DNA from: Sulfurimonas autotrophica DSM 16294
GTDB lineage: Bacteria; Campylobacterota; Campylobacteria; Campylobacterales; Sulfurimonadaceae
NCBI RefSeq assembly: GCF_000147355.1
Contig: NC_014506.1
Span: forward strand, 1,550,001-1,614,000
Direction of reading: 5' to 3'
Length of the DNA: 64,000 nucleotides
Positions 37,562 through 57,474 of this stretch are shown in pieces; positions within the stretch are counted from its first letter, which is position 1; each line of letters begins with the position of its first letter. A program made the position numbers and the translations under genes. A model generated the notes under the pieces. It was not told where the DNA came from, ran no database searches, and saw only the letters and a program-made list of their open reading frames with translations.

Positions 37562-38458
37562 TTATATTGTTTTAGGTAGTTTTTCTTTCATAACTTCAAC
37601 CAATTCAGAGTCTAAATCTTCAACTTTCGGTAAAACGATATTTGCTTTTAAATATAAGTCCCCTCTTTGTTTCGTTTTACGATTCATAGCCCCCATGCCT
37701 TTGACGCGGAATCTTTGTCCATTTTTCGTATTTTGCGGTACTTTTAGTTTAATCTCTTTTTCTAGAGTCTGCACAGCTATTTTATCGCCAAAGAGTGCAG
37801 CATATAGAGGGACATCAATAGTTTTTACTAAATCATCCCCTTCTCTTTCATACTCTGGGCTTGGTGCTACATGTATACGCAAGAAAAGGTCACCGACTCT
37901 ACCGTTTTGCGCATGCCCTTTTCCTTTGACACGCATTCGTTCACCGTCTTTAACACCGGCTGGAATTTTAATATCAAAGCGCTCACCATTGACTGAAACT
38001 GAGTGTGAGCCACCTAAAATTGCTACTGCAAATGGGATTGTGACGTTTGCTTCTATATCAAGATTTGGTTCCTGGTAACGTTGTTGTCCACCAAAACCAG
38101 AACCTCCAAAGCCGGATGCTCCAGCTCCACCGAAACCGCTGAAGCCACCGCCACCGCCGCCTGAAAACATTTGACGTAATATTTCATCAAGGTCGACATT
38201 TCCGCCTTGACTTTGTGAAAAATCATGGAAATTTTGACCGCCGAACATTGCATCACCATATTGGTCATACTGTGCTTTTTTCTCTTTATCGCTAAGAACT
38301 TCATATGCTGCATTAATTTCTTTAAATTTATCTTCAGCACTCGGATCTTTATTTACATCCGGATGATATTTACGTGCTAATTTTCTGTATGCTTTTTTAA
38401 TTTCTGATTCACTCGCACTTGGAGATACTTCAAGTGTTTCGTATAATGATTTGCTCAT
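37562..38458 (-). CDS. cbpA: DnaJ-class co-chaperone CbpA
   Basis: This 298-residue protein has a J domain (residues 1-70) with the HPD motif at 32-34, a glycine/phenylalanine-rich linker (about 85-130), and two C-terminal substrate-binding domains. The cysteine-rich zinc centre of true DnaJ is missing, which identifies the CbpA type. It stimulates DnaK ATPase activity and delivers unfolded substrates. It forms an operon with hspR, the arrangement known from Helicobacter and Campylobacter, and is transcribed from a strong consensus promoter overlapped by a HAIR-like operator. Confidence 0.93.
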
Positions 38459-38508: not shown

Positions 38509-38538
38509 ATTATATCATATAAGTTGAGCGTATGTCAA
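38509..38538 (-). promoter_or_regulatory. Consensus sigma-70 promoter of cbpA-hspR
   Basis: TTGACA (38533-38538) and TATAAT (38509-38514) are both perfect on the minus strand, with an 18-base spacer. This is the strongest kind of promoter in the window and suits a repressor-controlled heat-shock operon. Confidence 0.8.
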
Positions 38539-38543
38539 TCAAG
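38523..38543 (-). promoter_or_regulatory. HAIR-like HspR operator of cbpA-hspR
   Basis: On the minus strand the half sites CTTGATT and GCTCAAC flank exactly seven bases and match CTTGAGT-N7-ACTCAAG at 11 of 14 positions. The site covers the -35 box, so HspR binding would block RNA polymerase. A separate 8-bp inverted repeat (38538-38558) abuts it. Confidence 0.7.
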
Positions 38544-40265: not shown

Positions 40266-41225
40266 ATGAAACAAAATATTGCGATTATTTGTTCAGGCGG
40301 TGATGTATCAGGTATGAACCCTGCATTAAAACGATTTGTCGAATACAGTTTTGAACAGAATCTTACACCCTACTTTGTATATGACGGGTATGAGGGACTC
40401 ATTGACAACAATATAAAAAAAGCAGATTATTGCGATGTTGCAGGTATTATCAATCGTGGAGGCACAAAAACAGGGAGTGCCAGAAGCAAAAGATTTATGC
40501 AAAAAGAATACCGAACTATTGCAAAACAAAATCTTGATAACTTACATGTAACTATGTTAATAGTACTTGGGGGTGATGGCTCTTTTAAAGGATTACATGA
40601 ATTTTATAAAGAACATAAAATAAAATTTTGTGGTATTCCTTCGACTATTGACAACGATATTTCCGGTACTGATTATTGCTTAGGTGTGGATACAGCACTT
40701 AATATGATAAAATTTTCAATAGATTCTATAAGAGATACGGCATCCTCATTTAAAAGAGCTTTTGTGATTGAGACTATGGGTAACAAGTGCGGTTATCTAG
40801 CGCTTGTATCACATCTAACATCAGGTTCTGAACTTTGCCTTATTCCAGAGATACCATATAATTTGAATGATTATGAAGAAAAATTCAAACGAGAAATAAA
40901 AAATGGTCGTAGATATTTTATAGCTGTGGTTGCAGAAGGTATAAAACAAGATTCTGCCGAAATAGCTAAGTGGTTTGAAGAAAAAATTGGTATTGAGTCA
41001 AGAGTGAATATTCTAGGACATTTACAGCGTGGAGGCAATCCAACAGTAAAAGATAGACTTATGGCTTATAAATTTATAACATATGCCATTGATGGTTTAA
41101 TGAAAAATAAAAATGAAAGTATTATTTGTTATATGGAGAGTGGATTTGAATATAAAGAAATTGATGCGGTCGTGAACACGCCGTATCAATTAAATCATGA
41201 GCTTATAAAATATATAAGCTCATAA
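40266..41225 (+). CDS. pfkA: 6-phosphofructokinase
   Basis: This 319-residue protein has ICSGGDVSGMN for nucleotide binding, LGGDGSFKG (the glycine after GGD favours ATP over pyrophosphate), and the catalytic STIDNDISGTDYCLG with the active-site aspartate. ETMGNKCGYLA and LGHLQRGGNP follow, all typical of PfkA. It phosphorylates fructose 6-phosphate. In an rTCA-cycle autotroph it may work during glycogen breakdown. ATG 40266 follows an AAGAGAAAG purine stretch. The gene carries one TTACATGTAA (40542-40551). Confidence 0.92.
   Translation: MKQNIAIICSGGDVSGMNPALKRFVEYSFEQNLTPYFVYDGYEGLIDNNIKKADYCDVAGIINRGGTKTGSARSKRFMQKEYRTIAKQNLDNLHVTMLIVLGGDGSFKGLHEFYKEHKIKFCGIPSTIDNDISGTDYCLGVDTALNMIKFSIDSIRDTASSFKRAFVIETMGNKCGYLALVSHLTSGSELCLIPEIPYNLNDYEEKFKREIKNGRRYFIAVVAEGIKQDSAEIAKWFEEKIGIESRVNILGHLQRGGNPTVKDRLMAYKFITYAIDGLMKNKNESIICYMESGFEYKEIDAVVNTPYQLNHELIKYISS
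41197..41223 (+). terminator. Hairpin overlapping the pfkA stop codon
   Basis: A perfect eleven-base-pair stem with a five-base loop (ATGAGCTTATA/TATAAGCTCAT) ends inside the pfkA stop codon. No T-run follows on the plus strand, so it may protect the 3' end instead of, or as well as, terminating. Confidence 0.55.
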
Positions 41226-54823: not shown

Positions 54824-54844
54824 CTTGACAGTATTTGACTAAAG
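54824..54844 (+). promoter_or_regulatory. Upstream HAIR-like HspR operator near grpE
   Basis: CTTGACA-N7-ACTAAAG matches the HAIR consensus CTTGAGT-N7-ACTCAAG at 11 of 14 positions with exact spacing. It lies 49 bases upstream of a second, similar site. Confidence 0.6.
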
Positions 54845-54872
54845 TTAATTTATATAAAAAACAGAACTACTA

Positions 54873-54902
54873 CTTGACATTGTTACACTCAATGTGTATA
54901 AT
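54873..54902 (+). promoter_or_regulatory. Consensus promoter of grpE-dnaK overlapped by a HAIR-like operator
   Basis: TTGACA (54874-54879) and TATAAT (54897-54902) are perfect, with a 17-base spacer. A HAIR-like site, CTTGACA-N7-ACTCAAT at 54873-54893, covers the -35 and most of the spacer and matches the consensus at 11 of 14 positions. HspR binding would block the promoter. Confidence 0.75.
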
Positions 54903-54940: not shown

Positions 54941-55474
54941 ATGTCTGATAAAGAAAATGTAAACAATAATAACGAAACGGATGCTAATGAAGTCGCTGCT
55001 GAGGCTGAAGCAGTTGAAAATGAATTAGATTTACTGCAAAAAGAACTTGCAGAGTTAAAAGACAAATATGCACGTGTTCATGCTGATTTTGATAATATCA
55101 AAAAAAGATTGGAACGTGAAAAATATACAGCGGTTGAATATGCAAACGAAAAATTTGCAAAAGATATGATACCTGTTGTTGATTCTCTTGAGATGGCTTT
55201 AAAATCTGCTGATTCTGATGCAGACCCACAAGAGCTTATGAAAAAACTTAAAGAGGGAATCGAGCTCACTCTGAAACAATTCACTACAGCGCTTGAAAAG
55301 CACGGTGTAACAATGGTATCACACGAAGAACCGTTTGATCCAAATATACACAATGCAGTACAAAGTGTTGACAGTGAAAATGTTGAAAGTGGAGAGATCG
55401 TCCAAACTTTTCAAAGAGGTTATAAGTATAAAGACAGACCTCTGAGAGAAGCTATGGTAGTAGTAGCAAATTAA
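54941..55474 (+). CDS. grpE: Nucleotide exchange factor GrpE
   Basis: This 177-residue protein has an acidic N-terminus (MSDKENVNNNNETDANEVAAEAEAVE abbreviated), a long coiled coil (ELAELKDKYARVHADFDNIKKRLEREK) and the GrpE beta domain (HEEPFDPNIHNAVQ, then FQRGYKYKDRPLREAMV). It exchanges ADP for ATP on DnaK. AAGGAG lies about 12 bases before the ATG. No hrcA gene precedes it, unlike the hrcA-grpE-dnaK operons of many relatives. Confidence 0.96.
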   Translation: MSDKENVNNNNETDANEVAAEAEAVENELDLLQKELAELKDKYARVHADFDNIKKRLEREKYTAVEYANEKFAKDMIPVVDSLEMALKSADSDADPQELMKKLKEGIELTLKQFTTALEKHGVTMVSHEEPFDPNIHNAVQSVDSENVESGEIVQTFQRGYKYKDRPLREAMVVVAN

Positions 55475-55584: not shown

Positions 55585-57474
55585 ATGTCAAAAGTAATAG
55601 GTATAGATTTAGGAACAACAAATTCATGTGTGGCAGTATATGAAGGTGGTGAAGCGAAAATTATTCCAAATGCGGAAGGGAAAAATACAACTCCTTCGGT
55701 TGTTGCATTTACTGATAAAGGGGAAGTTTTAGTTGGTGACCCGGCAAAACGTCAAGCTATCACAAATCCAGATAAAACAATTTCATCTGTAAAAAGAATC
55801 ATGGGTCTCATGATGAATGAAGAAAACGCGAAAATTGCACAAAGCAAAGTAACATATAAAATCGTAGACAAAGATGGTATGGCAGCTGTTGATGTTGCAG
55901 GAAAAGTATATACACCGCAAGAGATTTCAGCAAAAATTCTTACAAAACTAAAAGAAGATGCTGAGTCTTTCTTGGGAAGCAAAGTAACTGACGCAGTTAT
56001 TACAGTTCCGGCATATTTCAATGACAGCCAAAGAAAAGCGACAAAAGATGCGGGTACAATCGCAGGACTGAATGTTCTTCGTATTATCAATGAGCCGACT
56101 GCATCAGCGCTTGCATATGGTTTAGAGAAGAAATCTGATGAAGATGTATTGGTTTATGATTTTGGTGGTGGTACATTTGATGTAACAACACTTGAAATCA
56201 GTGATGGTACATTTGAAGTTCTTTCAACTGATGGAAATGCATTCTTGGGTGGTGATGACTTTGACAACAAAATTGTTGACTGGTTAGCAGCTGAATTTAA
56301 AGGAAGTCACGGAATTGACCTTAAAAATGACAAAATGGCATTGCAACGTTTAAAAGATGCTGCTGAAAATGCTAAAAAAGAGTTAAGTTCAGCGACTGAG
56401 ACTGAAATCAACTTACCGTTTATCACAATGACAGAGGCTGGTCCACAACACTTAGTTGTAAAACTGACTCGTGCAAAATTTGAAGGTATGATTGACCCAC
56501 TTGTTGATGAGACAATGGATCACGTTAATACTGCGATGAAAGATGCAGACTTAAGCAAAGGTGACATTAAAGAAATCATCATGGTTGGTGGTTCTACTCG
56601 TGTTCCTTTAGTACAAAAAAGAGTTTCTGACTACTTTGACGGTAAAGAGTTGAACAAATCAGTAAACCCTGATGAAGTTGTTGCTGCAGGTGCTGCTATC
56701 CAAGGTGGTGTATTACGCGGTGATGTTAAAGATGTTCTTTTACTTGATGTTACTCCATTGTCACTTGGTATTGAAACACTTGGCGGTGTTGCGACTAAAG
56801 TTATTGAAAAAGGAACTACGATTCCTGTAAAAAAATCTCAAATCTTCTCAACTGCAGAAGACAACCAGCCAGCGGTAAGCATTAACGTTGTGCAAGGTGA
56901 AAGAGAATTTGCTAAAGATAACAAATCTTTAGGTCTGTTTGAATTGACTGATATTCCGGCAGCTCCTCGCGGTGTGCCTCAAATTGAAGTTACATTCGAT
57001 ATTGATGCAAACGGAATACTGACAGTTTCAGCAATGGATAAAGGAACTGGCAAAGAACAAAAAATTACAATCTCTGGTGCTTCAGGATTAAGTGAAGAAG
57101 AGATTAACAAAATGGTTCAAGATGCAGAAGCGCATAAAGCTGAAGATGAAGCTAGAAAAGCTGTTGTTGAACTTAAAAACCAAGCAGATGCATTGATTGC
57201 ACAAACTGAAAAATCAATGACAGAAATGGGTGAGAACCTTGCTGCTGATGAAAAAGCAAAAATTGAAGCAGCTATAACTGATCTTCAAGAAGTTCTAAAA
57301 GATGATAATGCTACAAAAGAACAAATTGAAGAAAAAGTAAAAGTACTTACAGAAGCTAGCCACAAAATGGCAGAGCAGATGTATAAAAAAGAACAAGGCG
57401 GTGAAGCTGGAGCAGGAGCTGACTCAGCGAAGAAAAAAGATGACGAGGATGTTATCGATGCAGAGATAGAGTAA
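55585..57474 (+). CDS. dnaK: Chaperone protein DnaK (Hsp70)
   Basis: This 629-residue Hsp70 begins [19 protein letters not shown] and shows the full set of ATPase motifs ([28 protein letters not shown]), the interdomain linker [18 protein letters not shown], the substrate-binding domain and the C-terminal lid ending [11 protein letters not shown]. It folds and protects proteins with GrpE and CbpA. AAAAGGAAG precedes the ATG. A 110-base gap separates it from grpE. A perfect 24-base palindrome overlaps the stop. Confidence 0.98.

Follow-up and report, generated by a model that had tools for sequence, protein, structure and literature searches.

Tandem HAIR-like sites and a predicted HspR-only grpE-dnaK promoter in Sulfurimonas autotrophica

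The genome of the sulfur oxidiser Sulfurimonas autotrophica DSM 16294 is complete and consists of a single contig of 2,153,198 bp. The window, which is the whole 64-kb stretch of DNA that was analysed, contains grpE and dnaK, and it also contains hspR behind a DnaJ/CbpA-type gene (Table 1). The latter is called cbpA after the Helicobacter/Campylobacter operon, its best NCBIfam DnaJ models being below their cut-offs. HspR additionally has a MerR-type DNA-binding domain (PF13411, 57.3 bits versus 21.6). The two genes have a HAIR at their shared promoter, a layout found in all 26 genomes of the family. An earlier, sequence-only reading had remarked that the usual hrcA is missing before grpE, and this is so: the place is occupied by a divergent open reading frame (690 aa as listed, 673 aa as scanned) that has no Pfam match at E <= 1 and is not hrcA. 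Genome-wide, two Sigma70_r2 proteins were found at E <= 0.01, one of 718 aa (RpoD-like by length) and one of 235 aa (FliA). There is no third sigma-70-type factor and no RpoH-type (sigma-32) factor among these matches.

Table 1. Genes, promoter elements and predicted HspR operators, in window coordinates
Feature	Position	Strand	Basis
HAIR site 1, upstream operator (predicted)	54824..54844	+	CTTGACAGTATTTGACTAAAG; 11/14 to HAIR
HAIR site 2, operator over -35 (predicted)	54873..54893	+	CTTGACATTGTTACACTCAAT; 11/14 to HAIR
-35 hexamer TTGACA, grpE-dnaK promoter	54874..54879	+	sequence; 79/79 rows
Near-invariant centre of site 2, TTGTTAC	54880..54886	+	79-row alignment
-10 hexamer TATAAT, 17-nt spacing	54897..54902	+	sequence; 78/79 rows
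grpE	54941..55474	+	NF010747, 184 bits, over cut-off
dnaK	55585..57474	+	NF001413 and TIGR02350, over cut-off
hspR, only MerR_1-type gene found in genome	37172..37546	-	NF047375 HeatShock_HspR, 117 bits vs cut-off 105
cbpA-like co-chaperone gene (J domain, DnaJ C-terminal domain), upstream of hspR	37562..38458	-	PF00226, PF01556 over cut-off
HAIR site of cbpA-hspR promoter	38523..38543	-	CTTGATTGACATACGCTCAAC; 3 mismatches; contains -35; TATAAT 38509-38514

Two sites fitting the HspR consensus had been proposed before grpE, the second of them over a consensus -35, and both parts of this claim hold. Measured against the pattern CTTGAGT-N7-ACTCAAG, sites 1 and 2 are present with three mismatches each, 49 bp apart. 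The -35 hexamer falls within site 2, and the -10 hexamer follows 17 nt further on. Both sites are imperfect and resemble the HAIR-like sites described for Campylobacter, and a matrix built from the family supports both.

A match at this level is common. The window has three HAIR matches at three mismatches or fewer where 3.39 are expected, at least three occur in 69 of 100 shuffled windows, and the whole genome has 83 compared with 101 for the reversed pattern, with no genome-wide enrichment. A fit at 11 of 14 positions alone therefore proves nothing. A loosened pattern (12 fixed positions, three mismatches) was rejected as too permissive, matching 1265 places compared with 973 for its reversed control. 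Of the three matches in the window, two are the grpE sites and the third is the cbpA-hspR promoter. When the 205-bp region upstream of grpE was shuffled 5000 times, two matches never arose (0/5000) and one match arose 48 times. The observation of two HAIR-like sites is confirmed by their place, pairing and conservation rather than by the match count.

Conservation was assessed in an alignment of related grpE loci on the promoter core, in which 78 of 80 loci and the window gave 79 rows; the two loci dropped had nine mismatches to the 30-bp core (L077) or too little upstream sequence (L094). Both grpE sites are kept across Sulfurimonas, the genus to which the nearest named relatives by GrpE belong. 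At site 1, mean pairwise identity is 0.754 in the left arm and 0.725 in the right arm, and 0.462 in the 7-nt spacer, which takes 67 forms in the 79 rows. Since fourfold sites of grpE have an identity of 0.416 in the same rows, this spacer is close to free, and site 1 fits the HAIR signature of kept arms around a variable spacer. At site 2, identity is 1.000 in the left arm (identical in 79/79 rows) and 0.947 in the right arm (ACTCAAT in 67/79), with the -10 at 0.996, values to be read in the knowledge that the row filter (at most eight mismatches to the core) selects for a conserved site 2 but not for a conserved site 1. The spacer of site 2 is near-invariant, with an identity of 0.924 and seven forms, so that the free spacer expected of a HAIR is found at site 1 and not at site 2.

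Position weight matrices built without any sequence of the genome itself were also used to rank 127,960 positions of the window. When 20 clpB sites from other genomes were used for training, site 2 came first (24.8) and site 1 second (23.7); TTGACA, also a -35, accounts for some of the score at site 2 and of the clpB matrix, the rule by which the clpB training sites had been picked containing this hexamer. With clpB and cbpA sites combined (45 sites), the top three were the cbpA-hspR site, site 1 and site 2, and a matrix from the site 1 orthologues alone (78 rows) ranked site 1, then the cbpA-hspR site, then site 2. The matrix from cbpA sites only (25 sites) put site 1 sixth and site 2 outside the top six. 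A moderate matrix match on the minus strand at window 40747-40787 (CTTGTTACCCATAGTCTCAAT, site at 40767) lies in a coding region and is probably due to chance.

The search for hrcA elsewhere in the genome depends strongly on the model used. PF01628 (HrcA) gave nothing in the genome, and over 298 genomes of the class it gave no match over the cut-off and one at E <= 0.001, which is not a true HrcA. It was rejected as a test for HrcA, being blind in this class although hrcA precedes grpE in many of its genomes. The absence of HrcA is not readable from Pfam because of this result, and absence calls that rest on PF01628 are unsafe in Campylobacterota (0/298 versus 226 with NF003033). We instead chose NF003033 ('HrcA family transcriptional regulator', NCBIfam), which matches the proteins encoded directly before grpE in relatives. 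This model is positive in 226 of the 298 genomes, with HrcA detected down to E of about 1e-25, and gives no match at E <= 0.001 in the genome of S. autotrophica or in any of the 26 genomes of its family.

The 72 HrcA-negative genomes comprise all 26 of the S. autotrophica family (f1), all 19 of family f4, all 17 of genus g7 in f2, both of f9, two of three in genus g33 of f2, two of three in genus g10 of f5, and four of genus g14 in f3. HspR was found in 293 of the 298 genomes, including 26/26 of the own family and 69 of the 72 that lack HrcA. Neither regulator was found in three genomes of f4 (G176, G195 and G283).

CIRCE (TTAGCACTC-N9-GAGTGCTAA) was likewise reported missing by the sequence-only reading, and there is none in the 64-kb window at three mismatches or fewer. 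The best fits have eight mismatches upstream of grpE and nine upstream of groES in S. autotrophica, and six to nine in the 26 groES promoters of the family. For comparison, we took 43 loci of 11 families, chosen from 100 other genomes (L126 being counted as hrcA-bearing). A CIRCE fit with at most five mismatches precedes hrcA or grpE in 23 of 27 hrcA-bearing loci versus one of 16 hrcA-less loci, and in this one the fit spans the ribosome-binding site and the start codon. HAIR-like sites are present in hrcA-bearing and hrcA-less loci alike. Tandem HAIRs 48-52 bp apart, each with at most five mismatches, occur in 9/16 hrcA-less loci (f1, f4 and f9) and in 5/27 hrcA-bearing loci, all of f3; pairs at L246, L259 and L260 were left out of this count on the ground that one of the two sites shared bases with CIRCE, was placed behind the promoter or was weaker than a further site. 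Because tandem HAIRs also occur in hrcA-bearing relatives, control by HspR alone probably arose by loss. The ancestral state was presumably dual control, from which some lineages dropped hrcA along with CIRCE.

HAIR-like sites also occur at other heat-shock operons of the family. A HAIR covers the -35 of cbpA in 26/26 genomes, and it covers that of clpB in 21/26 genomes with 21 different spacers; in one of the five without a clpB site (L171) the upstream sequence available was 29 nt, too short to reveal one. None of the ClpB proteins of the 26 genomes exceeds the TIGR03346 cut-off (best 1200 versus 1232 bits), and as full-length matches they are still called ClpB. In S. autotrophica the clpB site is at C1:1665648-1665668, with three mismatches. 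A HAIR-like repeat lies 3-5 nt before the -35 of groES in 21/26 genomes, leaving 5/26 without a site by the rule used; the groES and cbpA rules were derived from the same sequences on which they were counted. The conserved groES site of S. autotrophica, at -90, has four mismatches, and a three-mismatch match 152 nt before groES (C1:636004) was set aside in its favour, as it is not conserved. The groES operator (L133-L158) appears as a variant of HAIR with T for G and a longer arm, TTTAGTC-N5-GACTAA, that ends 3-5 nt before the -35.

In the genome of S. autotrophica itself, htpG (NF003555) has a HAIR with two mismatches 74 nt upstream (C1:1365169-1365189; L220:1501-1521), which suggests that Hsp90 belongs to the HspR regulon there. 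HAIR matches with at most two mismatches occur at five places in the genome, one of them at htpG and three inside reading frames. The fifth (C1:112665) is followed after 43 nt by a possible start of a 233-aa reading frame, but is itself located in the tail of a 101-aa frame. In 19 of 20 stretches around other strong HAIR matches, no clear further target was seen.

Taken as a whole, the data are in our judgement probably best explained by a grpE-dnaK promoter that is repressed by HspR and has lost its HrcA arm. In this model, HspR would bind the two HAIR operators 49 bp apart. As the -35 of this near-consensus sigma-70 promoter falls within site 2, HspR bound there would bar RNA polymerase, and site 1 might cooperate with it by helping to anchor a longer HspR complex, like the multiple HAIR-like sites in C. 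jejuni. Heat would inactivate or titrate HspR, and the promoter would fire. As in other HspR systems, a loop linked to DnaK or CbpA is likely behind the release by heat. HspR would also control its own operon, clpB, groESL and probably htpG. In relatives, HrcA at CIRCE would act as the second repressor of the hrcA-grpE-dnaK promoter; in the family of S. autotrophica, hrcA and CIRCE appear to be gone, which would leave HspR as the sole recognised heat-shock regulator. The suggestion that dnaK control may rest on HspR alone is supported in sequence terms. It is favoured by the lack of recognisable HrcA, of CIRCE at the own promoters and of a third sigma-70-type factor, by a single HspR gene and by HAIRs at the expected operons, whereas the invariant centre of site 2 may leave room for a further factor.

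This frozen centre is the most interesting residue of the finding. It reads TTGTTAC in 62/79 rows and TTATTAC in 10/79. At clpB the same layout, CTTGACA-N7-ACTCAA, has 21 different centres in 21 genomes, so neither the HAIR nor the promoter spacing explains the centre of site 2. A palindrome, ATTG-N7-CAAT, was dropped as the cause of the invariance, since its G varies (65/79) and the partner C is invariant. The element TTGAC[AT]TTNTTAC occurs in 10/26 groES promoters, outside the HAIR-like repeat, and in 0/25 clpB and 0/26 cbpA promoters. Its 73 matches in named loci (811 kb) all lie at grpE. The element is missing from the sampled loci of families f4 and f9, and from sampled hrcA-less loci outside the family such as L116, L122 and L130. 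HspR itself may read the centre, since binding of H. pylori HspR to Pcbp is nearly lost upon a change of the HAIR spacer (PMC6102357, in excerpt). Alternatives to HspR as the reader are a contact of RNA polymerase or a third factor.

One objection to an HspR-repressed promoter is that both sites arose by chance, the promoter DNA being AT-rich. Matches at 11 of 14 positions are indeed no commoner than expected in the window and in the genome; the conservation data refute this reading, the independent matrix ranking and the shuffles without a paired match also speak against it, and we give it next to no credence. It is very improbable that a divergent HrcA was missed by the searches and still acts on a degenerate CIRCE at the own promoter. 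The HrcA of Campylobacterota is divergent enough to evade PF01628 entirely, yet NF003033 detects it in most of the class and in none of the family, a complete single-contig genome included. With no CIRCE below eight mismatches at the own promoters, such a regulator is already largely refuted.

The remaining alternatives concern site 2. Only site 1 might be an HspR operator, with site 2 a strong, conserved sigma-70 core promoter in which TTGACA mimics the left HAIR arm. TTGACA and TATAAT would account for the left arm and the -10, and the invariance of the whole 30-bp core goes beyond the needs of a HAIR. We consider this unlikely, given that the right arm ACTCAA is conserved although sigma-70 has no sequence requirement in the promoter spacer, where this arm is located, and that CTTGACA-N7-ACTCAA recurs with ever different spacers at clpB and is found in many hrcA-bearing loci of other families. 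Instead, HspR could be joined by a third factor that reads TTGAC[AT]TTNTTAC at grpE and groES and that in effect replaces HrcA in Sulfurimonas. The near-invariant spacer of site 2 and the distribution of the element, which is found at grpE and in part of the groES promoters and is missing from those of clpB and cbpA, point in this direction. Such a factor is decidedly unlikely: there is no candidate protein, 16/26 groES promoters are without the element, its lack in sampled hrcA-less loci of other families means that it does not track the loss of HrcA generally, and HspR may read the spacer, as H. pylori HspR does on Pcbp (PMC6102357, in excerpt). A broader version, to which we assign a rather low probability, is that, once HrcA was lost, TTGAC[AT]TTNTTAC was acquired or became fixed directly behind the -35 of the Sulfurimonas grpE promoter and of many groES promoters. 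It would be an operator inside the HAIR, with either another regulator or HspR, in a mode specific for the spacer, as its reader. HspR as the sole repressor remains the preferred reading, and the frozen centre offers a target for testing, base by base, whether HspR reads a HAIR spacer.

The dnaK operon of Streptomyces, in a different phylum, is under HspR and is not known to be controlled by HrcA, which is used there for groE. With several inverted repeats controlled by HspR, its dnaK promoter is similar to the Sulfurimonas promoter, for which such control is predicted (the HAIR consensus is cited in excerpts of PMC7464140). Closer systems are those of C. jejuni and H. pylori, in which HspR binds HAIR-like sites on heat-shock promoters (excerpts of PMC7464140 and PMC6102357). 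The arrangement in S. autotrophica is like that of C. jejuni (Phrc, Pgro, Pclp and Pcbp) in having hspR behind cbpA and HAIR-like sites, several per promoter, at the cbpA, clpB, groES and grpE-dnaK promoters (PMC7464140, in excerpt). According to the same excerpts, several HAIR-like sites on C. jejuni Phrc are bound by HspR, which covers the core promoter at Pclp and Pcbp; in Sulfurimonas such coverage is predicted from the sites, with one of the two grpE HAIRs, in distinction from C. jejuni, sitting on the -35 (PMC7464140). Unlike Sulfurimonas, C. jejuni has hrcA before grpE, and the CIRCE bound by its HrcA lies over the start of Phrc and Pgro (PMC7464140). H. pylori is similar in having HspR and HAIRs at the cbpA-hspR, groES and hrcA-grpE-dnaK promoters, and differs in having one HAIR per region and HrcA as a second repressor; binding of its HspR spreads past the HAIR and needs the HAIR spacer on Pcbp (excerpts of PMC6102357). 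The contrast with Helicobacter and Campylobacter drawn from the sequence is borne out for HrcA. It does not extend to the HAIR sites, given the tandem HAIRs in hrcA-bearing loci of f3 and the several HAIR-like sites on C. jejuni Phrc (PMC7464140, in excerpt).

HrcA has been reported absent from acidophilic Epsilonproteobacteria, in a genome set that lists Sulfurimonas autotrophica DSM16294 as a neutrophile (PMC10490939, in excerpt). The missing hrcA beside dnaK is common to that report and the present case; by term search HspR is absent from its main text, and the excerpted passages hold no operator analysis. A vent study found hspR in all samples and discussed the hrcA of Nautiliales (excerpts of PMC10696704). 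The search of the open-licence literature found no papers on HspR operators in Sulfurimonas. The absence of HrcA in acidophilic Epsilonproteobacteria is already in print, and the present case is a variant of a known circuit, by way of the loss of the partner repressor.

What is known of heat shock in Campylobacterota comes from two host-associated genera, where control is shared by HspR and HrcA. In the large free-living group to which Sulfurimonas belongs, a single repressor seems to suffice, and its relatives, graded with and without hrcA, form a natural experiment on the contribution of a second repressor. The mirror image of the Sulfurimonas case, HrcA without HspR, was seen in two genomes of family f7 (G044 and G217). 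The sampled hrcA promoter of G044 (L128), which has no HAIR below five mismatches, carries a perfect CIRCE and a second CIRCE-like repeat.
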